64,000 nt of DNA, from contig NZ_SAYT01000002.1 of the NCBI RefSeq assembly GCF_004296575.1, positions 372,001 through 436,000 of the forward strand. The letters are read 5' to 3'. The DNA is from Dyella amyloliquefaciens (GTDB taxonomy: Bacteria; Pseudomonadota; Gammaproteobacteria; Xanthomonadales; Rhodanobacteraceae). A program made the translations under genes and the position numbers. Below, piece after piece: positions 337-37,718 of this stretch (position 1 is the stretch's first letter; each line of letters begins with the position of its first letter). Under the pieces are notes generated by a model that ran no database searches, had not been told where the DNA came from, and saw only the letters and a list, made by a program, of their open reading frames with translations.

Positions 337-1251
337 ATGAACGCCGATGTCGCTCGGCTCATCGATCTGGATTGGGACAATTTCGATCCATGGCGCATCC
401 AGCCCGCGCGCCATCACCTGACCGATCATCCACTGCTGCAACTCCCCCAACTGGTGGAGCTTGGCAAGCGCCTGGAAGCCCGCGGGCGCGTGCGCACGCA
501 CAGCGACGACGCCACCGCCGGCACGCCGTTCAACAACGCGCCGCGGATGCATCCCAACGCGAAGTCGGCGGCGACCACGCTGCAGGACATCGCCCAGGCC
601 AAGGCCTGGATGTCGCTGCTCAACGTGCAGACCGACGACCTCTACCGCTCGCTGGTGGATGACGTGCTGGACAGCATCAGGCCGGCCGTCGACCGTGTCG
701 ATCCCGGCATGAGCTATCGCGGCGGCTGGATCTTCATCACCTCCCCGAACGCGGTGACGCCGTTCCACTTCGACAAGGAACACAACTTCATCATGCAGGT
801 GAGCGGTCGCAAGACGCTCTACGTATGGGATCACCGCGATACCGTCGCCGCCAGCGAAGAGGCGCGCGATCGCTTTCACGCCTCTCACGAGCGCGATCGC
901 CTGCACTGGGATGACAGCCTGCGCGAGCGCGCCACCGTGTTCCACCTGGAACCCGGCCAGGGTGCGTACATGCCATCGACCAGCCCGCACATGGTGGAGA
1001 ACGGCGACAACGCCTCGGTCACCATCAGCTTCACCTACTACACCGAGTCCACGCGCCGCGACAGCCTGCTGCACAGCGCGCACGAGCGCCTGCGCGGCTG
1101 GGGTATCGCACCACCCGCCGTGGGCAAGAACCCGCTGCTCGACGCGCTGTTGCACGCGGGCTTCCGCTCCACCATCGATTCGCGCGAGTGGTTGCGCCGC
1201 TCGCTTGGCAAGCAGCCGAACACGGATCGCTCGGCCTACGCCATCGCTTGA
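337..1251 (+). CDS. JmjC/cupin-like Fe(II)/2-oxoglutarate-type oxygenase
   Basis: This 304-residue protein has the cupin/JmjC arrangement of a non-haem iron oxygenase. An HFD motif (H144, D146) lies in a strand after a TPF segment, and a distal histidine (H218) sits in the PHMVENG segment, giving a plausible 2-His-1-carboxylate site. A strong ribosome site (AGGGGGAGA) precedes the ATG. It ends 35 bp before the NRPS-PKS gene and is probably co-transcribed with it, so hydroxylation of an amino acid or of the carrier-bound chain is the natural guess. That role is inferred from position; relatives of this family also act on proteins or sugars. It is cytoplasmic, with no signal peptide. Confidence 0.75.
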   Translation: MNADVARLIDLDWDNFDPWRIQPARHHLTDHPLLQLPQLVELGKRLEARGRVRTHSDDATAGTPFNNAPRMHPNAKSAATTLQDIAQAKAWMSLLNVQTDDLYRSLVDDVLDSIRPAVDRVDPGMSYRGGWIFITSPNAVTPFHFDKEHNFIMQVSGRKTLYVWDHRDTVAASEEARDRFHASHERDRLHWDDSLRERATVFHLEPGQGAYMPSTSPHMVENGDNASVTISFTYYTESTRRDSLLHSAHERLRGWGIAPPAVGKNPLLDALLHAGFRSTIDSREWLRRSLGKQPNTDRSAYAIA

Positions 1252-1286: not shown

Positions 1287-4200
1287 ATGACGCAGCCAAA
1301 CAACGCGCAAGCGACACCGGCGAGCCAGGAGCTTTCGTTGCTCGACGTGCTGGTACGGCAGTCCTCGCCGACCGCTGCCATACCGAGGGAACGGCTGGAA
1401 ATGGTGTTGGACCGGGAGGTCCTCGATGCGCTCACCCGGCGCGCGGAACGCCATGAGCTCTCGCTCCACGCGCTGCTGACGGCAGCGCTTGCCTTGCTCG
1501 AGTCGCGCCTGACCGGCCGAAGCCGGATTGCACTGACTGTCGCCGATGCGATCGTCTGCTATGACATCCCGCTTCATGGCCTTGTCGATGAGTGGCTGGC
1601 CACGTCCCCCTGTCCGGCCACGACGAACGACGCAGTGCCCAGCCTGATCGGCGGCTGGCGTGACACGTCGTCGACCTCACCGATCACCGACATGCCGTTG
1701 AGCTGGTCGCTGGGCGCCGACGGCAGGCACGTCGCCATGGATTTCGATACCAACGTCTTCGACGAAGCCATGCTGTTGATGCTGGGCAAGGGCTTGACGC
1801 ACGTGTGCCAGGGTTTGGCGCATTCGCAGCATCTGGAGGACGTCGTTGCGTTCGACGCGGCATCGCAGCAGCGCACGCTGGCGGATTGGAACGCTACGGC
1901 CATTGAGCGCAACCCGCAGGACACCGTACACGGGTTGTTCCGCACGGTCGCCGCCGCGCACCCCGATGCCACGGCGCTGGAGGGTACGCAGGGAGGTATG
2001 ACCTACCGCGAACTGGATGAGGTCAGCGACCGTATCGCTGCAGGTCTCGTGGAAGCTGGCGCCAGGCCCGGCGCGCTGGTCGGCATGTTGCTGGATCGCT
2101 CCTGCGAAGCGGTCGCGACGATCCTGGGCATTCTCAAGGCCGGCGCCGCCTACCTGCCGCTCGATCGCACCTATCCCGAAGAACGCCTGGCGTTTGCACT
2201 CAATGACGCGGATGTATCGGTCATCGTCGCTCCCGAGGGCACCCCTCCTGTAGCGAACGTGCGTGCGTCCACGCTCTCATACGTGCAACTCGCCGCCAGC
2301 ACCCCTGCACCCGCTTCGCCGGCACCCGACGGAGCATCGCTGGCCTACGTGATGTATACCTCGGGCTCGACGGGCACACCCAAGGGTGTGGAAATCCGCC
2401 ACCGCTCGATCATCAGGCTGGTACGCGACGTCGACTACGTGACGTTCGGCGACAGCCCGCGCGTGCTGCACGCCGCTCCGCTCGGCTTCGACGCGGCGAC
2501 GTTCGAGATCTGGGGCGCCCTTCTCCATGGTGGCACCTGCATCGTGCACGAGGAGCGCGTCCCCAGCGGTGCCGGCCTTGCCGCCACCATCGCGCGCCAC
2601 GACGCTCGCATCGCATGGCTGACGGCGGCGCTGTTCAACGCCATCGTCGACCAGGACATCACTCCGCTACGCAGGCTGGAACAGCTGCTCACCGGGGGCG
2701 AAGCGCTATCGGTGTCCCACGTGCGCAAGGCACAGGCTCTGTTGCCCGGCACACAGCTGATCAACGGTTACGGCCCCACCGAATGCACGACGTTTGCGGC
2801 CACCTACCGCATTCCCCGCGAACTGGACGCGACAATCCGCTCGATCCCGATCGGCCGCCCGATTGCCGACACCACGCTTTACGTACTGAACGCGCGCGGT
2901 GAGTCGGTGCCTGTCGGCGTCATCGGTGAGCTCTTCATCGGCGGTCCCGGCGTGGCACGCGGCTACCTCGGGCGCCCTGAACTCACCGCCGAACGCTTCG
3001 TGCCGAATCGCTTCGGTGGAGAGAGTACACACCTGTATCGCACCGGCGATCTGGTGCGCTGGTTGCCGGAGGGTGTGATCGAGTTCGTCGGCCGCGCCGA
3101 TACGCAGGTAAAGATCCGCGGCTTCCGCATCGAGACCGGCGAGATCGAGGCCGCGCTGCAGCGTCTGGCAGGCGTGCGTTCCGCCGCGGTGCTGGCCCGC
3201 GAGGATCAGCCCGGACAAAAGCGCCTGGTCGTCTATTTCGTGGCTGAGGACAATGCGGTCACCGCACGCTCGCTGCGCGCGCAGCTGGCGCAAAGCCTGC
3301 CCGAGTACATGGTGCCGGTCGCCTATCTGCGGCTGGACAGCCTGCCGGTGACGCCGAACGGCAAGCTGGATCGGCGCGCCCTGCCCGCTCCTGGCCGTCG
3401 CCGCCCTGAACTCGCCGATCAGTACGTGCCGCCCATCGGTCAGCTCGAGCAGACGCTCTGCACGCTGTTCTCCGATGTGCTGGAAATCGACCAGGTCGGG
3501 CGGCTCGATCATTTCTTCGATCTCGGCGGCAACTCGTTGCTCGCCGTGCGGCTGATGGAACGCATCCACGCTAGCGTATCCACCTCGCCGACCATTCCCG
3601 CCTTCTTTGCCGAGCCGACGCCTGCGGCACTGGCCGCGCTGATCGAGGGGCGCAACCCGCGTTCCGCGCTCGCCTCGCGGCTGTCGCGGGGCCGACAGGG
3701 CGACGCCCACGAACCGGTCGCCATCATCGCGGCGGCGGGCCGCTTCCCCGGCGCAGCCGACGTGGAGTCGTTCTGGTCCAACCTGTGCGAAGGCCGCGAG
3801 ACGATCACGCGCTTTGCGAGCGATGAGCTGGACCCGTCGATTCCCGCGATTCTGCGCAACGATCCCGACTATGTCGCCGCCCGCGGCATCGTCGACGGCG
3901 TGGAGGACTTCGACGCCGCCTTCTTCGGCATGTCGCCGCGCGAAGCGGAGCTGATGGACCCGCAGCAGCGCATCTTCCTGGAACTGTGCTGGGAGTGCCT
4001 GGAGCGCGGCGGCTATACGCCCGATCGCCACGAGGTGCCGGTCGGCGTGTTCGGCGGTATGTACCACGCCACCTATTTCCAGCATCACCTGGTGCAGCGC
4101 CCGGACCTGATCGACAAGCTGGGCGCCTTCCAGGTGTCGCTGGCCAACGAGAAGGACTTTCTCGCCACGCGCGTGTCGCACAAGCTCAACCTCACCGGGC

Positions 4201-7200
4201 CTGCGCTCAGCGTCAACACCGCCTGCTCCACCTCGCTGGTCGCGATCTGCCAGGCCGTGGCGGCGTTGCGCGCCGGGCAGTGCGAGATGGCGATCGCGGG
4301 CGGTGCATCGATCACCTGCCCGCCGCGCAGCGGCTATCTCTCGCAGGAAGGTTCGATGCTGTCGCCCGATGGGTACACGCGCACCTTCGATGCGAATGCG
4401 CAGGGCACGGTGTTCAGCGATGGCGCCGCCGTGGTGCTGCTCAAGCGCTGGTCGGACGCGCAGCGCGACGGCGACGAGGTGCTCGCACTGATCCGCGGCA
4501 TTGCCATCAACAATGACGGCGGCGGCAAGGCCAGCTACACCGCGCCCAGCAGCGACGGCCAGGCGGCCGTGATCGCGATGGCGCTGGCGGATGCCGGTGT
4601 CGACGCGCGCTCGATCTCCTATGTCGAAGCGCACGGCACGGCCACGCCGCTGGGCGACCCGATCGAGATCGAAGGCCTCACCAGTGCGTTTCGCCAACAC
4701 ACCGACGACCGCGGCTTCTGCGCCATCGGCTCGGTGAAGAGCAACATCGGTCATACCGTGATCGCCGCCGGTGCCACTGGCGTGATCAAGACGGCACTGT
4801 CGCTGCACGAACAGCTGTTGCCGCCGTCGCTGCATGTGCAGGCCACCAACCCCAAGATCGACTTCGCGGGTTCGCCCTTCGTCGTCAACGACACGCTTCG
4901 CCCATGGGCCACGGATGGCCAGCCTTTGCGCGCGGGCGTCAGTTCGTTCGGCGTGGGCGGTACCAACGCGCATGTGATCATGGAGCAGGCACCGGCCCGG
5001 GAACCCTCCGACGCCGCCGAAGGACCGCAACTGCTGGTGCTGTCGGGTCGCACGCCGACCGCCGCGATGGCCGCTGCGGCACGCCTCGCCGGCCACCTCG
5101 CTGCGCACCCGTTGATCAATCTCGCCGATGCAGGCAGCACCCTGCTGCACGGGCGCAAGGCCTTCACGCATCGCACCCAGGTGGTCGCAGCGAATGTGGA
5201 CGAGGCCATCGCACGCTTGCGTGAACTGACCACGGCATCGGTGCGTGAGGCCAAGCTGCCAGGCCCGGGCGTGGTGTTCCTGTTTCCGGGCCAGGGATCG
5301 CAGTACGCGGGCATGGGCAAGGCGCTGTACGACAGCGAGCCGGTGTTTCAGGCGGCGCTCGATGATTGCGCCGAGGTGCTGCGTGCGGAACTCGGCTTCG
5401 ACCTGCGCGAGCGCCTGTTTGCCGGCAATGCCGACGCCCTGCGCGAAACCTCACTGACCCAGCCGGCCACGTTCGCCATCGAATACGCACTGGCGAAGCT
5501 GTGGATGGCGATGGACGTAACGCCGGTGGCGATGATCGGCCACAGCGTCGGCGAATTCGTCGCCGCCGTGATCGCCGGCGTGATGAGCCTGGCCGATGGC
5601 GCGCGACTGGTAGCCCGCCGGGGCCGTCTGATGCAGGCGATGCCGGCCGGCGCGATGCTGTCGGTCCGCCTCCCTGCGGAACAGTTGCTGCCGCGCCTGC
5701 CCGCCGACCTGCAGCTCGCCGCTGAAAACAGCCCGACCGCCAGCGTGGTCAGCGGCGAGACGGCGCGTGTGGAGGCGTTCCGTGCGCAGCTCGAAGCCGA
5801 AGGCGTCGCCTGCCGCCTGCTGCAGACGTCGCATGCCTTCCATTCCGCGATGATGGACCCGGTGCTCGAACCGTTCCGCGCCGAAGTGACGCGCGTGGCA
5901 CTGTCGACGCCGGCCATCCCCATCATCTCCACCCTCACCGGCGAAGCGCTGCGCGACGACGAAGCGATCTCCGCCGACTACTGGACGCGCCACCTGCGCG
6001 GAGCCGTGCGCTTCTCTCCCGCGCTGCAACGCCTGCTCGACGAGCCCTCCCATGTATTCCTGGAAGTGGGCCCGCGCAATGCGCTCACTACGCTGGCACG
6101 CCAGCACGCCGGCAGCCGTCCGCACCTGATGGTGGCAAGCGTGGCCGATGCACCCGCATCCGAACGCGCGGCATGGGTCGCGGCGATGGGACAACTCTGG
6201 TGCGCCGGCCTGCCGGTCGCCGTGTGTTCGCTGGACCGTCGCCATCGTCGCCGGCACGTGCGCCTGCCCACCTATCCGTTCGAGCGCAAACGCCACTGGG
6301 TCGAGGCCGCCTTGGCCGCCAGTGCACCGGTCACCTTGCCCGCCAGTGCGCCGGACAACGTCGTTCCGCTTTTCACACCTACTACTGCACCTGTCGTGGA
6401 GCCCGCCATGGAAGCCAACGTCACCGGCGCCAACGCCGGCTCGGCCCGTCAAACCCGCCTCGTCAACCAGCTGGTCGAGCTGTTCGAGGACGTCGCCGGC
6501 ACCGAGTTGGAGGGCGTGGATCCCGCCACCGGTTTCGTCGAGCTCGGGCTCGACTCGCTCGCCCTCACCCAGGTTGCGCTGCAACTGCAGAAGACCTTCT
6601 CGCTGAAGATCACCTTCCGCGAGCTGATGGAGTCGTTCTCCTCCTTCGAGCGCCTTGCCATGCATATCGACCAGATGCTGCCGCCGGAAGCCACGCCAGC
6701 CACGCCCGCCGCCGTTGCTGCGGTCGCCCCCGTCGCGCCGCTGCAGGCCGCGGTCGCCATGCCGGCGATGGCCGTCGCCGCAACCGGCAACGTGGTGCAG
6801 GACCTGATCCAGCAGCAGATGCAGATCATGCAGCAGCAACTGGCGCTGCTGGCCGCCGCATCGATGGGCGCCGCGCCTGCGGTGACGGCTCCGGCACCCG
6901 TGTTACAGCCCGCACCGGTAGCGCAGCCCGCGCCCGCCACCGCGGCAGCTGCGCCCGCACCGGCTGCGACCCAGCCCGCACCGGACGAGGAAGCCGCGCT
7001 CGCGCACACCAGCTACGACGTCAAGAAGGCCTTCGGCGCCATCGCGCGCATCCATTCCACCCAGACCGAACTGACGGAGCGCCAGCGCGCCCGCCTGGAA
7101 GCGTTCATGCGCCGCTACATCGAGCGGACGCGCGCTTCCAAGGAATACACCACGCGTCATCGCGACCATCTCGCCGATCCGCGCGTGGTGAACGGCTTCC

Positions 7201-8558
7201 GCCCGCTGCTGAAGGAAATGATCTACCAGATCGTGGTGAACCGTTCGAAGGGTTCCAAGGTGTGGGACCTGGACGGCAACGAGTACGTCGATGCACTCAA
7301 TGGCTTCGGCATGAACCTGTTCGGCTGGCAGCCGGACTTCGTGGTCGAAGCCGTGCGTCGCCAGCTCGACGCCGGTTATGAGATCGGCCCGCAGCATCCG
7401 CTGGCCGGCGAAGTGGCCGAACAAGTCTGCGAGCTCACCGGGTTCGACCGTGCGGGCCTGTGCAATACGGGTTCCGAAGCGGTGATGGGCGCCATCCGCA
7501 TCGCCCGCACCGTTACGGGTCGCGACACGCTGGTGATCTTCACCGGCTCCTACCACGGCATCTTCGATGAAGTGATCGTGCGCGGCACCAAGAAGCTGCG
7601 CTCGGTGCCCGCCGCGCCGGGCATCCTGCGCAATACCTCCGAGAACGTGCTGGTGCTCGACTACGGCACACCCGAGTCGCTGCAAATCATCCGCGAGCGT
7701 GCTTCCAGCATCGCCGCGGTGCTGGTCGAACCGGTGCAGAGCCGTCGCCCCGACTTCCAGCCGCGGGACTTCCTCAAGGAGCTGCGTGCGATCACCGCCG
7801 ATGCCGGCGCGCTGCTGATCTTCGACGAGGTGGTCACCGGCTTCCGTTCGCACCCGCGTGGCGCGCAGCACGTGCTGGGCATCGATGCCGACCTCGCCTC
7901 CTACGGCAAGGTGGTGGGCGGTGGCTTCCCGATCGGCGTGATCGCCGGCAAGCGCCGCTACATGGACGCACTGGATGGCGGCGGCTGGCAGTACGGCGAT
8001 GCGTCGATTCCCACCGTGGGCGTCACCTATTTCGCCGGCACCTTCGTGCGCCATCCGCTGGCCCTGGCTGCTGCGCATGCCGTACTCAACCATCTCAAGG
8101 CGAATGGCGCGGCGCTGCAGGAGCGCCTCAATGCCCGCACCAGCCTGCTGATGGACGAACTCAATGCGTTCTGCGCCAGCGTCGGCGCACCGATCCAGCT
8201 GGTGCACTTCTCCTCGGTGTGGAAGACCAACTTCACCGAGGACCACCCGCTGCAGGACCTGCTGTTCGCGATGATCCGCAGCCGCGGCATCCACCTCCTG
8301 GACAACTTCCCCTGCTTCTTCACCACCTCGCACACCGAGCAGGATTTCCAGGCCATTGCCAAGGCCTACAAGGATTCCGTGCTTGAAATGCAGGAGGCGG
8401 AATTTCTGCCACGCAACAAGAAAGTGGAGACGCTCGCCTTCGACGCCAGCCGCCCGCCGGTAGTCGGCGCACGCCTGGGCAAGGACCCGGAAGGCAATCC
8501 CGCGTGGTTCGTGCCGAACCCCGACGCGCCCGGGAAGTACATGAGGGTCAACGCATGA
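1287..8558 (+). CDS. Hybrid NRPS-PKS: A-PCP-KS-AT-ACP-aminotransferase
   Basis: This is a 2423-residue assembly-line protein. Residues ~1-205 resemble the C-terminal half of a condensation domain without the HHxxxDG motif. The adenylation domain (~210-720, YTSGSTG at 357) has a binding-pocket code I read as DAFWLGGTFK, close to valine codes. PCP phosphopantetheine serine is S750. The ketosynthase has C980, H1116 and H1156. The acyltransferase has S1420 (GHSVG) and an HAFH motif at 1516, which indicates malonyl-CoA. ACP serine is S1757. An Ala/Pro/Gln-rich linker leads to a class III PLP aminotransferase (~1945-2390, K2208 in SYGKVVGGG). No ketoreductase is present. The expected chemistry is aminoacyl loading, one malonyl extension and conversion of the beta-keto group to an amine. 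The ATG at 1287 is chosen because AGGGGA sits 6 bp upstream; an in-frame start at 1188 would overlap the oxygenase gene. It overlaps the next gene by ATGA. Confidence 0.93.
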   Translation: MTQPNNAQATPASQELSLLDVLVRQSSPTAAIPRERLEMVLDREVLDALTRRAERHELSLHALLTAALALLESRLTGRSRIALTVADAIVCYDIPLHGLVDEWLATSPCPATTNDAVPSLIGGWRDTSSTSPITDMPLSWSLGADGRHVAMDFDTNVFDEAMLLMLGKGLTHVCQGLAHSQHLEDVVAFDAASQQRTLADWNATAIERNPQDTVHGLFRTVAAAHPDATALEGTQGGMTYRELDEVSDRIAAGLVEAGARPGALVGMLLDRSCEAVATILGILKAGAAYLPLDRTYPEERLAFALNDADVSVIVAPEGTPPVANVRASTLSYVQLAASTPAPASPAPDGASLAYVMYTSGSTGTPKGVEIRHRSIIRLVRDVDYVTFGDSPRVLHAAPLGFDAATFEIWGALLHGGTCIVHEERVPSGAGLAATIARHDARIAWLTAALFNAIVDQDITPLRRLEQLLTGGEALSVSHVRKAQALLPGTQLINGYGPTECTTFAATYRIPRELDATIRSIPIGRPIADTTLYVLNARGESVPVGVIGELFIGGPGVARGYLGRPELTAERFVPNRFGGESTHLYRTGDLVRWLPEGVIEFVGRADTQVKIRGFRIETGEIEAALQRLAGVRSAAVLAREDQPGQKRLVVYFVAEDNAVTARSLRAQLAQSLPEYMVPVAYLRLDSLPVTPNGKLDRRALPAPGRRRPELADQYVPPIGQLEQTLCTLFSDVLEIDQVGRLDHFFDLGGNSLLAVRLMERIHASVSTSPTIPAFFAEPTPAALAALIEGRNPRSALASRLSRGRQGDAHEPVAIIAAAGRFPGAADVESFWSNLCEGRETITRFASDELDPSIPAILRNDPDYVAARGIVDGVEDFDAAFFGMSPREAELMDPQQRIFLELCWECLERGGYTPDRHEVPVGVFGGMYHATYFQHHLVQRPDLIDKLGAFQVSLANEKDFLATRVSHKLNLTGPALSVNTACSTSLVAICQAVAALRAGQCEMAIAGGASITCPPRSGYLSQEGSMLSPDGYTRTFDANAQGTVFSDGAAVVLLKRWSDAQRDGDEVLALIRGIAINNDGGGKASYTAPSSDGQAAVIAMALADAGVDARSISYVEAHGTATPLGDPIEIEGLTSAFRQHTDDRGFCAIGSVKSNIGHTVIAAGATGVIKTALSLHEQLLPPSLHVQATNPKIDFAGSPFVVNDTLRPWATDGQPLRAGVSSFGVGGTNAHVIMEQAPAREPSDAAEGPQLLVLSGRTPTAAMAAAARLAGHLAAHPLINLADAGSTLLHGRKAFTHRTQVVAANVDEAIARLRELTTASVREAKLPGPGVVFLFPGQGSQYAGMGKALYDSEPVFQAALDDCAEVLRAELGFDLRERLFAGNADALRETSLTQPATFAIEYALAKLWMAMDVTPVAMIGHSVGEFVAAVIAGVMSLADGARLVARRGRLMQAMPAGAMLSVRLPAEQLLPRLPADLQLAAENSPTASVVSGETARVEAFRAQLEAEGVACRLLQTSHAFHSAMMDPVLEPFRAEVTRVALSTPAIPIISTLTGEALRDDEAISADYWTRHLRGAVRFSPALQRLLDEPSHVFLEVGPRNALTTLARQHAGSRPHLMVASVADAPASERAAWVAAMGQLWCAGLPVAVCSLDRRHRRRHVRLPTYPFERKRHWVEAALAASAPVTLPASAPDNVVPLFTPTTAPVVEPAMEANVTGANAGSARQTRLVNQLVELFEDVAGTELEGVDPATGFVELGLDSLALTQVALQLQKTFSLKITFRELMESFSSFERLAMHIDQMLPPEATPATPAAVAAVAPVAPLQAAVAMPAMAVAATGNVVQDLIQQQMQIMQQQLALLAAASMGAAPAVTAPAPVLQPAPVAQPAPATAAAAPAPAATQPAPDEEAALAHTSYDVKKAFGAIARIHSTQTELTERQRARLEAFMRRYIERTRASKEYTTRHRDHLADPRVVNGFRPLLKEMIYQIVVNRSKGSKVWDLDGNEYVDALNGFGMNLFGWQPDFVVEAVRRQLDAGYEIGPQHPLAGEVAEQVCELTGFDRAGLCNTGSEAVMGAIRIARTVTGRDTLVIFTGSYHGIFDEVIVRGTKKLRSVPAAPGILRNTSENVLVLDYGTPESLQIIRERASSIAAVLVEPVQSRRPDFQPRDFLKELRAITADAGALLIFDEVVTGFRSHPRGAQHVLGIDADLASYGKVVGGGFPIGVIAGKRRYMDALDGGGWQYGDASIPTVGVTYFAGTFVRHPLALAAAHAVLNHLKANGAALQERLNARTSLLMDELNAFCASVGAPIQLVHFSSVWKTNFTEDHPLQDLLFAMIRSRGIHLLDNFPCFFTTSHTEQDFQAIAKAYKDSVLEMQEAEFLPRNKKVETLAFDASRPPVVGARLGKDPEGNPAWFVPNPDAPGKYMRVNA

Positions 8559-11500
8559 ACCCGAACGAGCCGGCCATCGGCGGTGCCGAGGCGGTAGCCG
8601 TCGACTACGATCCGTTTGCCGGCGCCGCACTGGAGCGCGTGGTGCCCGCGACCGCGCCGCAGCGCGAGGTGTGGCTGGCTTCCACGCTGGAACCGCAGGC
8701 TTCGCTGGCCTACAACGAATCGGCCACGCTGCGCCTGCATGGCGAGCTGAATACGGCCGCGCTGCAGGCGGCGCTGCAACAGTTGATGGATCGCCACGAG
8801 GCACTGCGCGCCACCTTCGGCAAGGACGGCAGCGAGCTGTGCATCGCCGCGCAGCAGTCGCTGGTTTGCCTGGTGCGCGATCTTTCCTGGCTCGGCCCCG
8901 ACGAGCAGCAGGCGGATATTGACGCGACGCTCGCGCACGTGGTCACCGAGCCGTTCGACCTGGAAACCGGACCGCTGGTGCGCACGGAACTGCTGCGCCT
9001 GTCCGATGCGGAACACCTGCTGGTCTTCACGGCACATCACATCGTCTGCGATGGCTGGTCGTTCGGCGTGATCGTGCGCGACCTTGCAGCGCTGTATACG
9101 CAACAGCTCGGCCTGGGCGGCGAACTGCCGCCGGTCGACCCGTTTGCCGACTATGCACTGGCCGAAGCGGATCATGCCCAAAGCCAGCAAGGCCGCGACG
9201 CGGAGGGCTATTGGCTCAAGCGCTACGCCCATGCGGCGCCGTCGCTCGACCTGCCGACGGATCATCCCCGTCCTCGCCAGCGCACGTTCGCGTCGCGTCG
9301 CGAAGACCTCCTTCTCGACGCCACGCTGGTCGCTTCGGTGAAACGCGCCGGCGCCCAGCGCGGCGCCAGCCTGTATGCCACGCTGCTGGCGGCGTTCGGC
9401 CTGCTTCTGCAACGGCTGAGCGGCCAGGACGACGTGGTCATCGGTATTCCTTCCGCCGGCCAGGCCGCTGGTGGCCAGCACGGACTGGTAGGCCATTGCG
9501 TGAACGTGCTGCCGTTGCGCGTATCGCTGGACAAGGCTGCACCGTTCGCTGAGAGCCTCGCCAAAGTGCGCGGCGATCTGCTCGATGCCTTCGATCACCA
9601 GCAATACACCATCGGCAGCCTGCTCGCCCGCCTCGCCCTGCCGCGCGATCCGGGTCGCCTGCCGCTGGCGAGCGTGCTGTTCAATCTCGACCAGGCTCTC
9701 GACGAGCGCACGCTCAGTTTTCCCGGTCTCTCGTTCGAATTCGCCGGCGTGCCGCGCGCGTTCGAGAACTTCGAGCTGTTCGTCAATGCGGTGCAGTTGC
9801 CGCACGGCCTGCGGCTGGAATGCCAGTACAACTCGGACCTGTTCGATGCGGCCACCGTGCACGCCTGGCTCGATGCGTATGCCACGCTGCTGAGGAACGC
9901 CGCAGAGACGCCGGATGCAGCGGGTGCTGCGCTCGGCCTCGTTTCGGACAGCGCGCTCGCTACCCTGCACGCCTTGCAGCCGCAGCGCACGCCCTATGCG
10001 TCAGACCGGCTCGCCCACGAGTACTTCGAGGCACAGGTGGATCGTGTGCCGTCGCGCACAGCACTCGCCGGCGCGGTGCCGCAGTCCTATGCCCAACTCG
10101 AAGCGCGTGCGAATCGCATCGCCCACGTGCTGCGCGAGCGCGGCGTCGGCCAGGGCGACCTGGTCGGCCTGTCGCTGGCACGCAGTCCCGACATGCTGGC
10201 CTCCCTGCTGGCCGTACTGAAATCGGGCGCGGGTTATGTACCGCTCGACCCCGGCTTTCCGGCGGAGCGTCTTGCCTTCATGGCGCAGGACGCCGCGCTG
10301 GCCGCGCTCATCGTCGGTGACGAGGCCGCCTCGGTGTTCGACCTCCCGGCCGCGCAGGTGCTCTCGCTGGCTCGCGATGCCGCGCTGATCGACGCGGCCA
10401 GCGAGGCGCGACTGCTTCGCGACGACCGTTCCGCCACCCCGGAGTCGGTGGCCTACGTCATCTATACCTCCGGCTCCACTGGCAAGCCCAAGGGCGTGCG
10501 CGTGCCGCATCGCGCCACCTCCAACTTCATCGCCAGCATGCAGCGCGAGCCGGGCATCACCGAAGAAGACCGCCTCGTCGCAGTCACTACGCTGTCCTTC
10601 GACATCGCCTTCCTCGAGCTGATGCTGCCACTCAGCGTCGGTGCGGCCATCGTGCTGGCAACCCATGACGATGCGCGCGACGGCACCGCCCTGCGCCATC
10701 TGGTCGAGCAAAGCGGCGCCACCATGATGCAGGCCACGCCGGCCGGCTGGCGCGTGCTGCTGGAATCGGGCTGGCCGGGACGTGCCGGCTTCAAGGCCAT
10801 TGCAGGCGGCGAACCGCTGCCGCTGGACCTCGCCGAATCGCTGCTGGCCTGCTGCGGCGAACTGTGGAATGCCTACGGCCCCACCGAGACGACGGTGTGG
10901 TCCACGCTGTGGCGTGCACACGACCCGCGCAACGGCATCACCATCGGTCGCCCGATCGCCAATACCACGGTATACATCCTGGACGAACGCGGTGCGCCCT
11001 GCCCGATGGGCGTACCTGGCGAAATCCATATCGGCGGCGATGGCGTAACGCTCGGTTACCTCAACCGACCGGAACTCAACGCGGAGCGCTTCCTGCCCGA
11101 CCCGTTCGAACGCCGCGCCGAGGCGCGCCTGTATCGCACCGGCGATCGCGGTCGTTGGCTGGCGAACGCCGAACTGGAGCATCTCGGCCGCCTCGACTTC
11201 CAGGTGAAGATCCGTGGCTACCGTATCGAACTGGGCGAAATCGAAACCGCGCTGGCCGACTTGCCCGAGGTGGCACGCGCCGTGGTGATGGCGCGCGAGG
11301 ACCGTCCGGGCGACGTGCGCCTGGTCGCCTATGTCGTGCCCAGCGAAGGCGCCGAGCTCGAACACGTGGACCTGTGCCCGCGCCTGCGCCAGCGCCTGCC
11401 CGACTACATGGTTCCGCAGCACTTCGTGGCGATGGACGCGATCCCGCTGTTGCCGAACGGCAAGATCGATCGCAAGTCGCTGCCCGCACCGTCGCAGCCG

Positions 11501-14500
11501 ACTGCCCCTGCGCACCGCGAACGCCGCGCACCGCAGACCGGGACCGAGCAGCGCGTCGCCACCACCATGGAAGCCGTGCTCGCGCTGCCGGACCTGGACG
11601 TGCGCGACAACTTCTTCGCGCTTGGTGGTCATTCCCTGCTCGCGGCGCAGCTCACCGCGCGACTCAATCGCGAGTTCGGTATCACCCTGTCGTTCCGCAC
11701 CCTGTTCGATGCACCGACCATCGAGGGGCTGGCCGAAGCCATCGACAGCCTTCGCGGCCCCGCCGAGTCCGTGCCGACAGACGATATCCCCCGCCTCGCG
11801 AACCGCGAGCTGGCGCCGCTGTCCTCGATGCAACAACGCCTGTGGTACATGGAACAGCTCCATCCGGGCCGGGTGGTCTACAACACGCCATCGGCACATC
11901 GTCTGCGCGGCGCGATGAACGTCGCGGCCTTCCAGCAGGCCCTGAGCGACGTGGTGCAGCGCCAGCCGGTGCTGCGTACGTCGATCGAGGCGGGTGAAGC
12001 CGCGGGCATGCAGCGCATCCATGCAGACATCGCGCTGACGCTGCCCGTCGAAGATCTCTCCACCTTGCCCGCCCAAGAACGCCTACCGGCTCTGATGCGC
12101 GAACTCGAGGCCGACATCGCCAGGCCGTTCGACCTGTCATGCCCGCCACTGTTCCGTGCACGCCTGTTCCGTATCGATGAACAGGACCACGTGCTGTACT
12201 TCATGGCCCACCACATCATCTGGGACGGCTGGTCGTTCGACCTGCTCTATGAAGACCTGTCGCGCGCCTACGTGGCGCGCAGCAAGGGCGAGTCGTTGTC
12301 TCCCCTGCCGTCGCTGCCGGTCGAATACGCCGACTTCTCCGCCTGGCATCGCGACCGCATGCGCAGCACCACCGTGCAGGAGCAACTGGCACACTGGATG
12401 AAGGCGCTGGACGGCGCGCTGGAACCGCTGGAATTGCCTGGCGATCGTCCGCGTCCGGCACGCATGTCCGGCGCCGGCGCCACAGAATGGGTGCGCATTC
12501 CCGCCGAGCGCGCGGCCGCCGTGCACGCGCTGGCACAACAGGCGGAAGCCACGCCCTTCATGGTGCTGCTGGCAACGTACTACGTGCTGTTGCATCGCCT
12601 CAGCGGCCAGCGCGACCTGGTCGTCGGTACGCCGGTACGTGGCCGCGACCGCGTGGAAACCGAAAACATCATGGGCCTGTTCGTCAATGCGCTGCCGCTG
12701 CGCGTGACGGTGGACCCCGCGGCACCCTTCATTGATGTGGTGAAACAGGTGCGCCAGGTGGTGCTCGATGCGTTTGCCCATCCCGAGGTGCCGTTCGAGC
12801 AGCTGGTGTTCTCGCTCGGCGTGGCCCGCGATGAAAGCCGTCCGCCTATCTACCAGGCGATGTTCTCCTTCCAGGACGCGCGCCGCCGCATCCTGTCGTG
12901 GGGCGATCTCGCGCATGAACACCTGCCCGTGTTCCAGCGCGGCGCGGCAGACGATATCGGCCTGTGGTTCCTCGAACAGGAACAGGGTCTGCTCGGCGGC
13001 ATCACCTACAACACCGACATCCTCGACGCCGCCACGGCCGCGCGCTTCCGCGACTGCTATGAAACGCTGCTCGCATCGGCCCTGCTCGAACCATCGGCAT
13101 CGGTGGCCCGTCTCGACATGCTGCCCGCCGCACAGCGCGAAGCGTTGCAGCAGTGGAACGACACCCGGCTCGATGTGCCTGCGACGGCGCTGCATGCGCT
13201 GATCGAGGCCCAGTGCGACCGGGCCCCGACGCGTACCGCGATCCACTGTGGCAACAAGGCGCTCGACTATCGCCAGCTCGATGCGCGTGCCAACCGCATC
13301 GCGCATGCGCTGCGTGCGCGTGGCGTAGGCCACGGCGCCCTGGTCGGCGTCTCGCTGACCCGCAGCACCGACATGGTGGCTACGCTGCTCGCGGTGCTCA
13401 AGACTGGCGCGGGCTACGTGCCGCTCGATCCCGAGTTCCCGCCGGATCGTCTCGCCTACATGGCCGAGGATGCGAATCTCGCGGTGCTGGTGGTGGAAAC
13501 CGCCACCGCCGGCCGCTTCAGCGAAGGCGCATGCCCCGGGCTGAATCTCGACGAATGCGCTGCCGAACTGGATGCGGCACCCGATACCCGCCTGCCCATG
13601 GATGCGGCCTTCGATGGTCAGTCGATCGCCTACGTGATCTACACCTCCGGCTCGACCGGCCGTCCCAAGGGCGTGGCCATTCCGCATCGCGCAGTGGTGA
13701 ACTTCCTTGCGGGCATGGCGGCACGCCCCGGACTCCAGGCGGACGATCGCCTGCTGGCCGTCACCACGCTCTCGTTCGATATCGCGGTACTGGAGCTGTT
13801 CGGCCCGCTCAGCGTCGGCGCGCAGATCGTCCTCGCCACGCGCGATGAAGCGGTGGACGGCGACACGCTGAACCAGCTGCTGAGCTCGCATGCCGTCACC
13901 ATCATGCAGGCTACCCCGGTGAGCTGGCGCATGCTGTTGCAGACGCCGTGGCAACCGCCCATGGGCTTCCGCGCGTTGTGCGGTGGCGAGCCGCTGTCAG
14001 CTGACCTCGCAGCCCTCCTGACGGCTCGCGACTGCGAGCTGTGGAACATGTATGGCCCCACCGAAACCACGGTGTGGTCCACCTGCTGGCGCGTGGAGCA
14101 TCCGGGCCGCGGTATTTCCATCGGCGCGCCCATCGCCAACACCACCGTGTGGATCGTCGACGAACAGGGGCAGCCCTGTCCGATCGGCGTGCCGGGGGAA
14201 ATCTGGATCGGCGGCGACGGCGTCGCCTTGGGTTACCTGCATCGCGACGAGCTCACGGCGGAACGCTTTCCGCGGGATCCCTTCAGCGCCATGCAGGACG
14301 CTCGCATCTATCGCACCGGTGACCGTGGCCGCTGGCTGGCGAACGGCACGCTGGAACACCTGGGTCGACTGGACTTCCAGGTGAAGCTGCGCGGCTTCCG
14401 CATCGAGCCTGGCGAAATCGAAGCCGTCGCCCGCACGGAACCGGCCGTGACCGACTGCGTGGTCGTGGTGCGCGAGATCGCGCCAAACGACGAGCGCCTG

Positions 14501-15007
14501 GTGCTCTATGCGGTATGCAACGAGGACGAGGAAACCCTGTGGCCGAGACTGCGCTCGCAGCTTGCCGCACGTCTGCCCGCCTACATGCAGCCGCAGCACT
14601 TCGTGAAGCTCACCGCGCTGCCACGCACGCCGAACGGCAAGACCGACCGCAAGGCCTTGCCCGCACCGTCCCTCAACGCCCTGCCGCACGCCGACGACGC
14701 CGAACCCGGCGTCACCGCCAGCGAGGATGCGCGCGAGCGCTACCTGGGTGCCGTGTGGTGCGAGCTGGTCGGTACCGACGACGTGCGCGCCAGTGACAAC
14801 TTCTTCGATATCGGTGGCCATTCGCTGCTCGCCATCGAGATGGTCACGCGCGTGAAGCGGGAGACCGGCATCAAGCTCAACCTGCTGGACGTGGCGACCA
14901 GCCCGCTGGCTTCGCTCGCTGCCGCGCTGCCCGAGGGCGACCTCACTGAACCCGGCAAGACCGCCTCGCTGGGTGGCCGCCTTCGCCAGCTGTTCGGGCG
15001 GAGGTGA
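8555..15007 (+). CDS. Two-module NRPS, C-A-PCP-C-A-PCP, no thioesterase
   Basis: This is a 2150-residue peptide synthetase. Module 1 has a condensation domain with H161-H162 and D166, an adenylation domain and a PCP (S1027). Module 2 has H1219-H1220 and D1224, an adenylation domain and a PCP (S2090). I read the pocket codes as DILQIGAVWK and DILQLGMVWK; both resemble glycine-type codes, with low certainty. No epimerase, methyltransferase, thioesterase or reductase domain is present. About 60 residues follow the last carrier domain and end in a basic tail. The start at 8555 forms an ATGA overlap with the preceding synthetase, with AGGG upstream. It should accept the beta,gamma-diamino acyl chain from the previous protein and add two residues. 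Release must occur in trans or by spontaneous attack. Confidence 0.93.
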   Translation: MNPNEPAIGGAEAVAVDYDPFAGAALERVVPATAPQREVWLASTLEPQASLAYNESATLRLHGELNTAALQAALQQLMDRHEALRATFGKDGSELCIAAQQSLVCLVRDLSWLGPDEQQADIDATLAHVVTEPFDLETGPLVRTELLRLSDAEHLLVFTAHHIVCDGWSFGVIVRDLAALYTQQLGLGGELPPVDPFADYALAEADHAQSQQGRDAEGYWLKRYAHAAPSLDLPTDHPRPRQRTFASRREDLLLDATLVASVKRAGAQRGASLYATLLAAFGLLLQRLSGQDDVVIGIPSAGQAAGGQHGLVGHCVNVLPLRVSLDKAAPFAESLAKVRGDLLDAFDHQQYTIGSLLARLALPRDPGRLPLASVLFNLDQALDERTLSFPGLSFEFAGVPRAFENFELFVNAVQLPHGLRLECQYNSDLFDAATVHAWLDAYATLLRNAAETPDAAGAALGLVSDSALATLHALQPQRTPYASDRLAHEYFEAQVDRVPSRTALAGAVPQSYAQLEARANRIAHVLRERGVGQGDLVGLSLARSPDMLASLLAVLKSGAGYVPLDPGFPAERLAFMAQDAALAALIVGDEAASVFDLPAAQVLSLARDAALIDAASEARLLRDDRSATPESVAYVIYTSGSTGKPKGVRVPHRATSNFIASMQREPGITEEDRLVAVTTLSFDIAFLELMLPLSVGAAIVLATHDDARDGTALRHLVEQSGATMMQATPAGWRVLLESGWPGRAGFKAIAGGEPLPLDLAESLLACCGELWNAYGPTETTVWSTLWRAHDPRNGITIGRPIANTTVYILDERGAPCPMGVPGEIHIGGDGVTLGYLNRPELNAERFLPDPFERRAEARLYRTGDRGRWLANAELEHLGRLDFQVKIRGYRIELGEIETALADLPEVARAVVMAREDRPGDVRLVAYVVPSEGAELEHVDLCPRLRQRLPDYMVPQHFVAMDAIPLLPNGKIDRKSLPAPSQPTAPAHRERRAPQTGTEQRVATTMEAVLALPDLDVRDNFFALGGHSLLAAQLTARLNREFGITLSFRTLFDAPTIEGLAEAIDSLRGPAESVPTDDIPRLANRELAPLSSMQQRLWYMEQLHPGRVVYNTPSAHRLRGAMNVAAFQQALSDVVQRQPVLRTSIEAGEAAGMQRIHADIALTLPVEDLSTLPAQERLPALMRELEADIARPFDLSCPPLFRARLFRIDEQDHVLYFMAHHIIWDGWSFDLLYEDLSRAYVARSKGESLSPLPSLPVEYADFSAWHRDRMRSTTVQEQLAHWMKALDGALEPLELPGDRPRPARMSGAGATEWVRIPAERAAAVHALAQQAEATPFMVLLATYYVLLHRLSGQRDLVVGTPVRGRDRVETENIMGLFVNALPLRVTVDPAAPFIDVVKQVRQVVLDAFAHPEVPFEQLVFSLGVARDESRPPIYQAMFSFQDARRRILSWGDLAHEHLPVFQRGAADDIGLWFLEQEQGLLGGITYNTDILDAATAARFRDCYETLLASALLEPSASVARLDMLPAAQREALQQWNDTRLDVPATALHALIEAQCDRAPTRTAIHCGNKALDYRQLDARANRIAHALRARGVGHGALVGVSLTRSTDMVATLLAVLKTGAGYVPLDPEFPPDRLAYMAEDANLAVLVVETATAGRFSEGACPGLNLDECAAELDAAPDTRLPMDAAFDGQSIAYVIYTSGSTGRPKGVAIPHRAVVNFLAGMAARPGLQADDRLLAVTTLSFDIAVLELFGPLSVGAQIVLATRDEAVDGDTLNQLLSSHAVTIMQATPVSWRMLLQTPWQPPMGFRALCGGEPLSADLAALLTARDCELWNMYGPTETTVWSTCWRVEHPGRGISIGAPIANTTVWIVDEQGQPCPIGVPGEIWIGGDGVALGYLHRDELTAERFPRDPFSAMQDARIYRTGDRGRWLANGTLEHLGRLDFQVKLRGFRIEPGEIEAVARTEPAVTDCVVVVREIAPNDERLVLYAVCNEDEETLWPRLRSQLAARLPAYMQPQHFVKLTALPRTPNGKTDRKALPAPSLNALPHADDAEPGVTASEDARERYLGAVWCELVGTDDVRASDNFFDIGGHSLLAIEMVTRVKRETGIKLNLLDVATSPLASLAAALPEGDLTEPGKTASLGGRLRQLFGRR

Positions 15008-15031: not shown

Positions 15032-16162
15032 ATGACTACGATTGCCTACCTCGTGTGCTGGGGCAGCTTCTGGACGCTGCTCTACATCTTCGTGGGCTAT
15101 CCGCTTCTGATGTGGCTGTGGGCGCACGTGCTGCCGAAGCCGGTGCGCAAGCAGTCCTACCTTCCGACGGTCTCCGTGATCATCGTGGTCCGCGATGGCG
15201 TGCGGCACATCCGTTCCAAACTGAAGAACCTGCGCGTACTGGACTATCCGCCGGAGTACATCGAGATCATCGTCGCCTGCGATGGCTGCAAGGACCGCAC
15301 GGCCGCACTGGTCCGCCATTCGCACGACCCTCGCGCGCGAGTCCTGGAGTTTCCCGTCCCGCGCGGCAAGGCCTTGTGCCTCAACGACGCCATCGCCACG
15401 GCACGTGGCGAAGTGCTGTTGATGACCGACGTGCAGCACAAGCTTTCGCCGCTGGCTTTGCGCGAGCTGGTAGCGAACCTGGGTGATCCACGCGTAGGCG
15501 TCGCCAGCGGTGGCCTGGAGCTGGAGAACGTGCGCAGTGCCTTCGCGCACGGCGTGAGCGCCTACTGGCGCTACGAAAAGTTCATCCGCGAACAGGAGAG
15601 CCGCTGCGCCTCAACCATCGGCGCGAGCAGCGCGCTGTATGTCATGCGCAGGGAACTGTTCCAGCCCCTGCCACCTGACACGCTCCTCGATGACGTGCTG
15701 GTGCCCATGCGCGTCGCGGCGGCAGGCCATCGGGTCGTGCTCGAACCGCACGCGGTGATGTGGGGCGAGCCCGCCCAGGAGCCCTCGGCCGAACAACCCC
15801 GGCGCCTGCACGCCAGCATCGGCTGCTTCCAGTTGATGGAACTGGCGCCGTGGCTGCTGTCGCCCGCGCGCAACCCGCTGTGGTTCCAGTTCGTCAGCCA
15901 CAAGGCGCTGAGGTTGCTGGCGCCCTGGCTGCTGTTGTCGCTGTTGCTGTCGTCCGCCTACCTGGCGCGTTACCACCAGGCCTATGCGGCCGTGCTGGCG
16001 GCGTTGCTGCTGAGCCTGGCAGCGGTGCCGATGGAGCGCATCCGTCCGCATGCCGGACGCTGGCTGCCGGTGCGCCTGATGCTGGCGTTCTTCTATTTCA
16101 ATCTATACGCGGCGCAGGCTTCGATCGCCTTCGCCCGCAGCCGAGGGGAGCATCCATGGTGA
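15032..16162 (+). CDS. Membrane-anchored GT2 glycosyltransferase
   Basis: This is a 376-residue family 2 glycosyltransferase. An N-terminal membrane segment (~5-30) is followed by the GT-A nucleotide-binding fold: the VSVIIVVRDG strand, ACDGCKD, the MTDVQ DxD-like position, and LLDDV as acceptor-base region. At least two more membrane helices lie at ~295-370. This topology is typical of processive or lipid-linked sugar transferases acting at the inner membrane. It starts only 24 bp after the NRPS stop, with GGGGGA upstream of the ATG, so the synthetases and the polysaccharide genes are probably on one transcript. It overlaps the deacetylase start that follows. Sugar specificity cannot be read from the sequence. 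Confidence 0.85.
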   Translation: MTTIAYLVCWGSFWTLLYIFVGYPLLMWLWAHVLPKPVRKQSYLPTVSVIIVVRDGVRHIRSKLKNLRVLDYPPEYIEIIVACDGCKDRTAALVRHSHDPRARVLEFPVPRGKALCLNDAIATARGEVLLMTDVQHKLSPLALRELVANLGDPRVGVASGGLELENVRSAFAHGVSAYWRYEKFIREQESRCASTIGASSALYVMRRELFQPLPPDTLLDDVLVPMRVAAAGHRVVLEPHAVMWGEPAQEPSAEQPRRLHASIGCFQLMELAPWLLSPARNPLWFQFVSHKALRLLAPWLLLSLLLSSAYLARYHQAYAAVLAALLLSLAAVPMERIRPHAGRWLPVRLMLAFFYFNLYAAQASIAFARSRGEHPW

Positions 16163-17268
16163 GCGAGTTGCCGCACGACGCGAAGCCCACCGGCATCCGC
16201 GAGAAACTGGGCGAGTTCTGCTACAGCACCGGACTGCTCAGCCCGCTTCAGCGCGTACGTTCGTGGCTGCAGAAGGACCTGCGCATCCTTGCCTACCACC
16301 GGGTGATGCCGCTGCCGGATCCCGACAGCTACGACTTCGATCTGGAGCTGATCAGCGCGACGCCGGAAGGCTTCCGCGAACAGATGCTGCTGGTGAAGGA
16401 ACGCTACCGCCCCATGCGGCTCACCGACGTCGCCGCGGCCATCAACGCGGGCCACGCGCTGCCGCCGGACGCGGTGGTGATCACCTTCGACGACGGCTAC
16501 GACGACAACTACCACATCGCTTTTCCGATCCTGCAGGAACTGGGCATTCCGGCGACGTTCTTCGTATCCACCGGCCACATCGACAGCGGGCGCCCCTACG
16601 CCTACGACTGGCTGGTGCACATGATCCTGATGACCAACGCGGCACGACTCGAGCTGCCGGAGCTGGGCATGGACCTGCCCATGCCGGTGGGGCGTGCGGC
16701 CCGTCGCGCCCTGGCGACCAGCGTGCTCAATCACATGAAGGAGATCAGCGCGCTCGCCCAGGCCGACATGATCCGACGCCTGGAAAGGGAATGGAACATG
16801 CCGTCGGATGCCGCCGTGCCCGCGGATTGCCGCCCGATGACCTGGGACCAGCTGCGTGAGATGCATGCCGCGGGCCTGGAGATCGGCTCGCATGGCGTGA
16901 ACCACTGGATGCTGTCCAAGCTGCCGCTGGCGGAGCTGGAGCGGGAAGTGAACGAATCGAAGTACGCGCTCCTGCGCGAACTGGGTCCGATGCCGCTGCT
17001 GATGTCCTACCCGGTGGGCAGCAATCGTGCGTTCGACCGCCAGGTGATCGACGTCACCCGCAACGCCGGCTTCGACGTCGCCTGCAGCTACATCAGCGGC
17101 ACCAACCCGCAGCCCGCGGAGAACCGCTACTGGCTCTATCGCCTGGCGGTGGAGCGCTACATCGGCAAGCGCTGGTTTGCCGCCATGCTGACCATGCCTG
17201 GCCTGATCAACCACCCCACGCCGGCCCATCTGGCCTCGCCGGAAGACGCGCCGTCATGTTCCCACTGA
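16156..17268 (+). CDS. Polysaccharide deacetylase (NodB domain)
   Basis: This 370-residue protein has NodB homology. TFDDG near residue 114 supplies the catalytic and metal-binding aspartates, and an SHGVNH segment supplies the HxxxH metal ligands. It probably removes N-acetyl groups from a sugar chain or precursor. No classical signal peptide is visible, so it may act on cytoplasmic intermediates. The ATG at 16156 overlaps the end of the glycosyltransferase (ATGGTGA) and has GAGGGGAG upstream. A longer in-frame reading upstream exists but lies wholly inside the preceding gene. Its end overlaps the next gene by 13 bp. Confidence 0.87.
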   Translation: MVSELPHDAKPTGIREKLGEFCYSTGLLSPLQRVRSWLQKDLRILAYHRVMPLPDPDSYDFDLELISATPEGFREQMLLVKERYRPMRLTDVAAAINAGHALPPDAVVITFDDGYDDNYHIAFPILQELGIPATFFVSTGHIDSGRPYAYDWLVHMILMTNAARLELPELGMDLPMPVGRAARRALATSVLNHMKEISALAQADMIRRLEREWNMPSDAAVPADCRPMTWDQLREMHAAGLEIGSHGVNHWMLSKLPLAELEREVNESKYALLRELGPMPLLMSYPVGSNRAFDRQVIDVTRNAGFDVACSYISGTNPQPAENRYWLYRLAVERYIGKRWFAAMLTMPGLINHPTPAHLASPEDAPSCSH

Positions 17269-18521: not shown

Positions 18522-18583
18522 CGAAGTGCCGTTCCATCGCAATGCGCCGTACCGGCGTTCCCCACAGCGATGTTGTGTCATGA
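18518..18583 (+). CDS. Possible 21-codon coupling ORF
   Basis: An ATG at 18518 overlaps the stop of the polymerase gene as ATGA. It opens a 21-codon frame whose own TGA overlaps the ATG at 18580 of the ligase gene, again as ATGA. The peptide (MTKCRSIAMRR and onward) shows no recognisable motif. It may act only as a translational bridge between two genes 58 bp apart, or it may be fortuitous. GAGGACGTCAGG precedes the ATG and includes a weak ribosome site. Confidence 0.25.
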   Translation: MTKCRSIAMRRTGVPHSDVVS

Positions 18584-25531: not shown

Positions 25532-25937
25532 GCCCCCTCCCGCGCGAGGGGCCGATGCGGAACCACCATGTTCCGTCCCCTGTCCGGTTTGTCCCGGGAA
25601 GCACTGGCTGCCGCGCTGCGCGGCAGGCCCATCGGTGCTTCGTCCGGGGTTCTCGCTGCCTGTAAGCAGGCACAACGAGCCTATCGGAACGGCCAGGGCG
25701 CTCCCATCCGTCGAATTGCCAAGGCACTCGCCGCGAATCCGGAACCAGACCTGCCAAATCCCGTGACACGGCGCGCATATTCACCGGCACATCGGCCGTT
25801 TGTCATAGCCTGTCGGTGGCATGCCCACACTGCCTATGTGCCAATGGATATCGGGCGCGCAACAGGACACAGTGAGCATGTGACGGACGACGCGTGAACG
25901 AATGCGCCGTCCGAAGACGGATCAGGGGGAACTCGGA
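25532..25937. other. Divergent intergenic region
   Basis: About 400 bp separate the minus-strand glycosyltransferase start from the plus-strand deacetylase start. Both operons must have promoters here. I saw no convincing sigma-70 pair, no repeat and no plausible small gene. Short open frames lack ribosome sites and recognisable protein features. Confidence 0.5.
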
Positions 25938-37716: not shown

Positions 37717-37718
37717 GG

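Follow-up and report, generated by a model that had tools for sequence, protein, structure and literature searches.

An assembly line predicted to make a vicinal-diamine acyl-dipeptide in an XrtA-type exopolysaccharide locus of Dyella amyloliquefaciens

A two-protein assembly line joining nonribosomal peptide synthetase (NRPS) and polyketide synthase (PKS) modules was analyzed in Dyella amyloliquefaciens. It lies in a stretch of 64,000 nucleotides (positions 372,001 to 436,000 of contig NZ_SAYT01000002.1, assembly GCF_004296575.1), called the window throughout. The line was found inside an exopolysaccharide (EPS) locus of the XrtA type, together with a pair of hydrolase-like proteins, hydr1 and hydr2, of which hydr1 carries a Cys nucleophile. 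The DNA sequence itself showed the domains with their substrate codes and active sites, the EPS setting, and a hydrolase pair that co-occurs with the line. It was considered moderately likely that the line supplies EPS with a cationic acyl-dipeptide, which the Cys hydrolase delivers. The most likely product is 3,4-diamino-5-methylhexanoyl-Gly-Gly, a well-founded but unproven prediction. The source genome is 4.83 Mb in size, and by the aminotransferase (AMT) of the line the closest named relative was Dyella jiangningensis (99%).

Domain organization and active sites

Both open reading frames (ORFs) were uninterrupted; protein 1 probably starts at the ATG at 1287 and protein 2 at an overlapping ATGA at 8555 (Table 1). 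Pfam analysis assigned an adenylation (A) domain, a ketosynthase (KS), an acyltransferase (AT), two carrier domains and a class III aminotransferase to protein 1, and two each of the condensation (C), A and thiolation (T) domains to protein 2. Ketoreductase, dehydratase, enoylreductase, thioesterase (TE) and reductase domains were absent from the Pfam hit lists of both proteins, and a ketoreductase could be excluded between the AT and the acyl carrier protein (ACP) because the gap of about 120 aa was too small. These calls match the order A-PCP-KS-AT-ACP-AMT without a ketoreductase that a first-pass annotation had read from the letters. Aligned to linear gramicidin synthetase, the first 200 residues of protein 1 partly resembled a condensation domain in its C-terminal lobe, and they had no Pfam Condensation match, which suggests that the starter is probably not N-acylated.

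Active sites were compared across 80 related loci, examined out of at least 566 candidate stretches. Genes were called by GC at codon position, which gave wrong-strand frames in some loci (e.g., L021, L035, and G009); tblastn was used instead for low-GC genomes, to which this calling is unsuited. Where the region was covered, the KS Cys was retained in 67/67 loci and the AT motif HAFH in 72/73, the remaining one being an alignment gap; the AMT Lys was retained in 80/80. The HHxxxDG motif was present in 75/76 loci for C1 (the exception reads HP) and 72/76 for C2 (three HQ and one HP), and the HP row in both is probably a wrongly assigned locus, L089. Other gaps in the alignment concerned the two KS His (2 and 1 loci), the AT Ser (3) and the ACP Ser (1). 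Neither the KS nor the AMT, on whose activity the first-pass prediction depends, looks inactive.

Substrate codes and the predicted diamine

The specificity codes by motif position were DAFWLGGTF (A1), DILQIGAVW (A2), and DILQLGMVW (A3), which correspond in the usual code tables to Val, Gly, and Gly; the HAFH motif of the AT is presumably the malonyl form. Codes and motif are consistent with the proposed valine starter, one malonyl unit and two glycines, and the domain order and specificity assignment are given with high confidence.

The Val pattern was shared by 53 of 66 readable A1 codes in the relatives; the other 13 were Pro-like DVQ... (4), Thr-like DFWN... (2), DILIIGGIM (4), and other codes (3). 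For A2, the DILQ (Gly) pattern was found in 47/76 relatives and a DIMQ variant in 21/76, and the other eight codes included two Ser-like and one Thr-like. In G003 and G029, whose EPS-locus lines are more distant, one protein combines a Pro-like starter code (DVQLVAHVV) and KS-AT-ACP-AMT with a single Gly module (DILQLGLIW); a Pro starter would likewise yield adjacent amines. By these codes, the predicted starter differs among relatives while the assembly logic is retained. An extra NRPS protein lay downstream of protein 2 in L062, L066, and L067, and these relatives may add further residues.

Among solved structures, the AMT was best matched by the AMT domain of mycosubtilin synthetase MycA (6kfm, 397.6 bits), and the best glutamate-1-semialdehyde aminomutase structure reached 171.9 bits. 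In MycA, this domain acts next to an ACP to aminate a beta-keto thioester. With MycA as the best match, the AMT of this line, which sits after an ACP and has the pyridoxal phosphate (PLP) lysine, is of the same type, in agreement with the mycosubtilin/iturin kind named in the first-pass annotation. The fatty acyl starter of mycosubtilin-type lines was not found here: an A-T loading module with a Val code precedes the KS. An amino acid starter together with the lack of a ketoreductase predicts a 3,4-diamino acyl chain, and production of such a chain is regarded as likely. Thus, transamination of a beta-keto thioester to a vicinal diamine, as first proposed, passes the sequence tests; the layout proved less unusual than suggested, and the line was found within an EPS locus, as described below.

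Exopolysaccharide setting of the line

NRPS-PKS lines are usually regarded as makers of free natural products, and the line had at first been treated as one standing alone, with no account of the way in which a chain might be released from proteins that have no TE. Its setting is an EPS locus with a phosphopantetheinyl transferase (PPTase). The locus was classed as XrtA-type because TIGR03007, TIGR03027, and TIGR03013 were all above cut-off. Upstream of the window (L099) lie the TIGR03013 priming transferase (567.8 bits, cut-off 393), a TviB-like UDP-GlcNAc dehydrogenase (629 bits, cut-off 592), epimerase and GMC oxidoreductase genes, and the PPTase (PF01648), of the superfamily that activates carrier domains. 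Export, polymerization and sugar-modification genes follow the line in the window (Table 1). A TIGR02602 search of the genome found no exosortase XrtA/EpsH, and exosortase-linked protein sorting was rejected on that ground. General family scans of 30 locus ORFs gave no match to a small-molecule exporter family.

An AMT with at least 45% identity was found in 28 of 59 family genomes, the own genome included (among the matches listed). Outside the own genome, 25 of 27 relatives were examined; G001 and G027, with the AMT at a contig start, were left out. The line lay within the same kind of EPS locus in 20 of the 25. The five outside one were G024 (77%) and four with 45–50% AMT identity; of these four, G028 was truncated by the end of its contig and the other three belonged to proteins or clusters that hold additional NRPS modules. 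Full flanks were available for 59 of the 80 loci. Since the list of EPS genes holds broad families (GT4, UGD), seven narrower EPS genes were counted separately, and at least one of them was carried by 50/59 loci; when the whole list and the hydrolase pair were counted, 56/59 loci had at least one, the exceptions being L066, L067, and L070. In Dyella-like loci, the line stood between the priming transferase and the glycosyltransferase (GT), deacetylase and Wzy genes, and the EPS setting was retained across Lysobacterales and Burkholderiales. A functional tie between line and EPS is considered very probable.

The hydrolase pair

Neither window protein reached the curated cut-off for hydr1_PEP or hydr2_PEP membership (Table 1). 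The nucleophile elbow GxC of hydr1 was present in 37/38 sequences (the 38th is truncated), the His in 37/38 and the preceding Asp in 33/38; C111, D134, D242, and H243 were invariant in a 20-sequence alignment. At the nucleophile position, hydr2 had Arg in 36/37 sequences. The predicted model of hydr1 was an alpha/beta hydrolase (mean pLDDT 86), and that of hydr2 had a pLDDT of 85. The Foldseek list for hydr1 was headed by ordinary esterases and lipases, with GrgF (6lzh) and DcsB (7d79) at ranks 34 and 35. GrgF and DcsB use a catalytic Cys on polyketide substrates. Since acyl groups are readily passed from a Cys thioester to amines or alcohols, hydr1 was read as a trans acyltransferase, a role for which we judge the chances to be evenly balanced; hydr2 is read as its partner subunit.

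In the window, the pair lies about 20 kb from protein 2 on the minus strand, and in 27/80 loci it is encoded on the strand of protein 2, no more than 0.8 kb behind it. A PPTase gene stood between protein 2 and the pair in L093 and L096, and after the pair in L080. With matches counted up to E 1e-12, TIGR03100 was matched in 23/24 family genomes with the line (AMT at least 53%) and 1/35 others among the 59 genomes; the chain length determinant was present in 24/24 and 6/35, respectively. The corresponding Fisher p-values (4e-14 and 3e-11) are inflated by kinship. In five of six variable genera, the TIGR03100 match went with the line. XrtA-type export occurred in six genomes in which the line did not reach 53%; one of these had a TIGR03100 match, whereas G026 (g26) and G014 (g14), also of this group, had none. 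These counts indicate that the pair tracks the line more closely than EPS.

Two exceptions were found. G024 has the line and no hydr1 match, and the end of its protein 2 is thioesterase-like (GGSMGG motif). G042 (L172, 9973-12183), without the line at that AMT threshold, carries hydr2 and hydr1 fused into one protein, encoded next to an amino acid-[acyl-carrier-protein] ligase (399 bits against a cut-off of 357). The pair was also near ligase_PEP_1 in 5/12 regions, some of them cut by contig ends. The position beside these ligases suggests that the pair goes with carrier-bound acyl groups.

In four Lysobacter loci (L074, L075, L077, and L079), the part of protein 2 downstream of C2 contains two carrier motifs as well as a thioesterase, and in L074 a carrier domain stands on either side of the TE (T-TE-T). 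The idea that the pair simply replaces a TE was rejected, as these four loci hold both.

The terminal module

The state of A3 was scored in 74 loci, after omission of six whose protein 2 was incomplete or missing: it was intact in 17, lacked the P-loop in 22 and was absent in 35. A TE domain was found in six, all among the 35 without A3. The T3 serine motif was detected by script in 73 loci and by eye in the 74th (L081). A dead A3 is tolerated, perhaps, as a guess, because A2 loads T3 as well. The PaaK/CapK-like gene was rejected as a trans loader of T3: it adjoins lines with both intact and dead A3, and so does not explain the latter.

The C2 domain of the window shared 69% identity with that of Rhodanobacter sp. 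C01 (L049) and 53% with that of the sister Dyella sedimenti (L023). The identities with L023 and L049, respectively, were 69% and 62% for A1, 79% and 78% for KS, 72% and 61% for AT, 94% and 75% for AMT, 81% and 56% for C1, and 80% and 62% for A2. For lines with a dead A3, the A3 identities, unmasked against A2, were left out of the comparison. Trees of C1 and C2 were built from 48 hand-picked rows (the window, 17/17 lines with intact A3, 16/22 with dead A3 and 14/35 without A3) and conflicted in the same sense as the identity profile. Approximately unbiased (AU) tests gave p 3e-32 (C1) and 2e-72 (C2), values that are not clean because the groups were named after the identity table had been seen; the likelihood gaps (277 and 227) were large. 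By these comparisons, the case looks like a natural exchange of a single NRPS module at the T2-C2 border, and the terminal module of the window was probably acquired from a Rhodanobacter-type relative.

Other features of the locus

The translation of the cupin oxygenase gene upstream of protein 1 showed an HxD...H motif by eye, and a homologue was present in 42/80 related loci; perhaps it hydroxylates the product. The cupin gene adjoins a gene for a seemingly secreted protein (by eye; L099 16895-17926), which had no Pfam or NCBIfam match and had a homologue in 35/80 loci. An ORF of 672 residues inside the EPS locus (31169-33187 of the window) also had no Pfam or NCBIfam match.

Table 1. Positions of the assembly line, the hydrolase pair and neighbouring EPS genes in the window
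Feature	Position	Strand	Basis
Cupin_8/JmjC-type oxygenase, likely tailoring enzyme	337..1251	+	Pfam PF13621, 34.7 bits
Protein 1: C-lobe remnant, A1 (Val), T1, KS, AT (malonyl), ACP, AMT	1287..8558	+	Domain, code and motif analysis
A1 domain, Val-like code DAFWLGGTF	1938..3365	+	Pattern shared by 53/66 readable relatives
KS domain, Cys-His-His retained	3711..4838	+	Domain and motif alignment
AT domain, HAFH (malonyl type)	5274..6110	+	Domain and motif alignment
ACP	6468..6665	+	Domain match
AMT domain, mycosubtilin MycA type, PLP lysine within SYGKVVGGG	7140..8414	+	6kfm, 397.6 bits
Protein 2: C1-A2-T2-C2-A3-T3, without TE	8555..15007	+	ORF and domain matches
Terminal module C2-A3-T3, probably exchanged from a Rhodanobacter-type relative	11807..14923	+	Identity profile, tree conflict, AU tests
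GT2 glycosyltransferase	15032..16162	+	Pfam
Polysaccharide deacetylase	16159..17268 (putative start; scanned ORF 15760-17268)	+	Family matches
Wzy/O-antigen ligase-type polymerase	17256..18521	+	Pfam
PaaK/CapK-like AMP-ligase family protein	18526..19938	+	NCBIfam matches below cut-off; no Pfam match
GT4 glycosyltransferase	19938..21059	+	Pfam
Fused GFO/IDH-epimerase enzyme, probably sugar-modifying	22239..24344	-	Pfam
GT4 glycosyltransferase	24341..25675	-	Family matches
Polysaccharide deacetylase	25902..26612	+	Pfam
Wzx-type flippase	29575..31122	-	PF01943
hydr1: alpha/beta hydrolase, conserved Cys nucleophile and DH motif; candidate acyltransferase	33942..34760	-	TIGR03100, 85.3 bits, below cut-off 168.45
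hydr2: hydrolase-like partner without nucleophile (Arg instead)	34760..35536	-	TIGR03101, 75.5 bits, below cut-off 202.75
Outer-membrane beta-barrel, TIGR03016-like	35530..36900	-	Below cut-off
XrtA-like tyrosine autokinase	36937..37914	-	TIGR03018, 167 bits, below cut-off 231
XrtA-type chain length determinant	37719..39263	-	TIGR03007, 354.8 bits, cut-off 278.85
XrtA-type polysaccharide export protein	39301..39963	-	TIGR03027, 202 bits, cut-off 180

Discussion

The following scheme is our inference as to reaction order, the diamine, transfer to glycan and the parts played by hydr1 and hydr2. Valine would be loaded by A1, the KS would extend the valyl chain by one malonyl unit, and the mycosubtilin-type AMT would convert the 3-ketone to an amine, giving 3,4-diamino-5-methylhexanoyl-ACP. 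Two glycines would be added by C1 and C2, and the completed acyl-Gly-Gly would be held on T3. The Cys enzyme hydr1, with hydr2, would remove it from T3 as a Cys thioester and hand it to a glycan amine or hydroxyl; deacetylases of the locus could free the amines. Covalent attachment of the peptide to the glycan is slightly favoured. The scheme can be widened to a whole class of EPS decorated or linked by vicinal-diamine NRPS-PKS peptides, in which the Cys hydrolase and its twin generally move acyl groups from carrier to EPS, also in XrtA loci with ligase_PEP_1; this extension is tentative and, on balance, rather doubtful. To our knowledge, hydr1 and hydr2 have no assigned role in those loci.

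If the proposed scheme is true, an assembly line builds part of a bacterial matrix, and the matrix gains clustered positive charges or metal-binding sites. The hydr1/hydr2 pair found in XrtA-type EPS loci would also have a candidate function, and genome miners would gain a cluster family whose product belongs in the biofilm and not in the culture extract.

Several observations weigh against this scheme. A3 is dead or absent in 57/74 loci and A2 is not always Gly-like, so that the predicted Gly-Gly is not assured family-wide. No listed EPS gene was found near the line in L066, L067, L070, and G024. The genomes compared are related, and the co-occurrence p-values overstate the association; four of the 23 TIGR03100 matches (G038, G044, G050, and G057) are short and just past the threshold, and the TIGR03100 model weakly matches hydr2 too. 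The four Lysobacter loci carry both a TE domain and the pair, and the Cys hydrolase may merely hydrolyse. Before transamination takes place, the chain could also close to a tetramic acid through its free gamma-amine. The literature yielded no product or glycan structure for this locus.

It is conceivable, though unlikely, that the line makes a free vicinal-diamine small molecule (a signal, metallophore, or antibiotic), that hydr1 and hydr2 just hydrolyse, and that the EPS genes are co-regulated neighbours. Typical NRPS-PKS lines release free products, and the TE domain in 6/74 loci fits such release. Loci L066 and L067, where an additional NRPS gene is present and none of the listed EPS genes is close by, point the same way, as does G024, which has a TE but neither a hydr1 match nor, within 20 kb, a listed EPS gene. 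However, even G024 has a chain length determinant 45 kb away, and a free product is harder to reconcile with an EPS setting kept across two orders, with a line placed between priming transferase and GT, deacetylase and Wzy genes in Dyella-like loci, and with 30 scanned ORFs that matched no small-molecule exporter family.

Two narrower alternatives concern the chemistry and the destination of the product. The AMT could act like an aminomutase on the gamma-amino-beta-keto thioester and leave a beta-amino-gamma-keto chain with no diamine. Within class III it falls in the group of the glutamate-1-semialdehyde aminomutases, whose known reaction proceeds via a vicinal diamine; however, it scored 398 bits with the MycA transaminase domain and 172 bits with the best-matching aminomutase, and this outcome is highly improbable. 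Alternatively, the peptide could tie EPS to the cell surface as a linkage or cap, or cross-link its chains, instead of decorating each repeat. Two amines at one end and a carboxyl at the other suit a linker, and the locus holds outer-membrane and export genes; with no protein acceptor recognised and no exosortase found in the genome, however, a linker is very unlikely. An acyl-dipeptide made for EPS and delivered by hydr1 remains the preferred reading.

Literature searches, covering titles and the beginnings of abstracts, found no description of an NRPS-PKS line in an EPS locus of the exosortase/PEP-CTERM type, and no characterised cluster with the same domain string and another product. The sheath glycopeptides of Leptothrix and Sphaerotilus contain Cys. 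They were dropped as a model: titles and abstract openings gave no link to genes, and the codes here include no Cys.

An amino acid starter before a KS-AMT pair had first been called less usual, yet the layout was already tabulated in 2013. Table 2 of Milano et al. (2013; PMC3870968) lists A-CP-KS-AT-CP-PLP1 for Pedobacter heparinus C6XWU5, the same string at the opening of a longer protein in Thiorhodococcus drewsii (G2E5C9), and C-A-CP-KS-AT-CP-PLP1-C-HxxPF-A-CP for Salinisphaera F7QBN5. These proteins share the layout of the present line, and their antiSMASH predictions include Nrp-Mal-Gly; the part of that paper dealing with them gives predicted monomers only, with neither an EPS setting nor a hydrolase pair.

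With GrgF and DcsB, hydr1 shares the fold and the elbow Cys, whereas the identity is 15–16%, the substrates differ and many Ser esterases rank higher. MycA (KS-ACP-AMT) of the mycosubtilin/iturin type has the AMT family and the placement of the AMT after an ACP in common with this line. MycA works on a fatty acyl chain, whereas an amino acid starter is predicted here, and hence a vicinal diamine; we know of no EPS locus around MycA. The XrtA/PEP-CTERM EPS loci (TIGR03007, TIGR03013, TIGR03027, TIGR03098, TIGR03100, and TIGR03101) share chain length, export and priming functions and relatives of hydr1 and hydr2 with the present locus. They differ in that no exosortase was found in this genome and that hydr1 and hydr2 are below cut-off here, and an NRPS-PKS line stands where the others have ligase_PEP_1.

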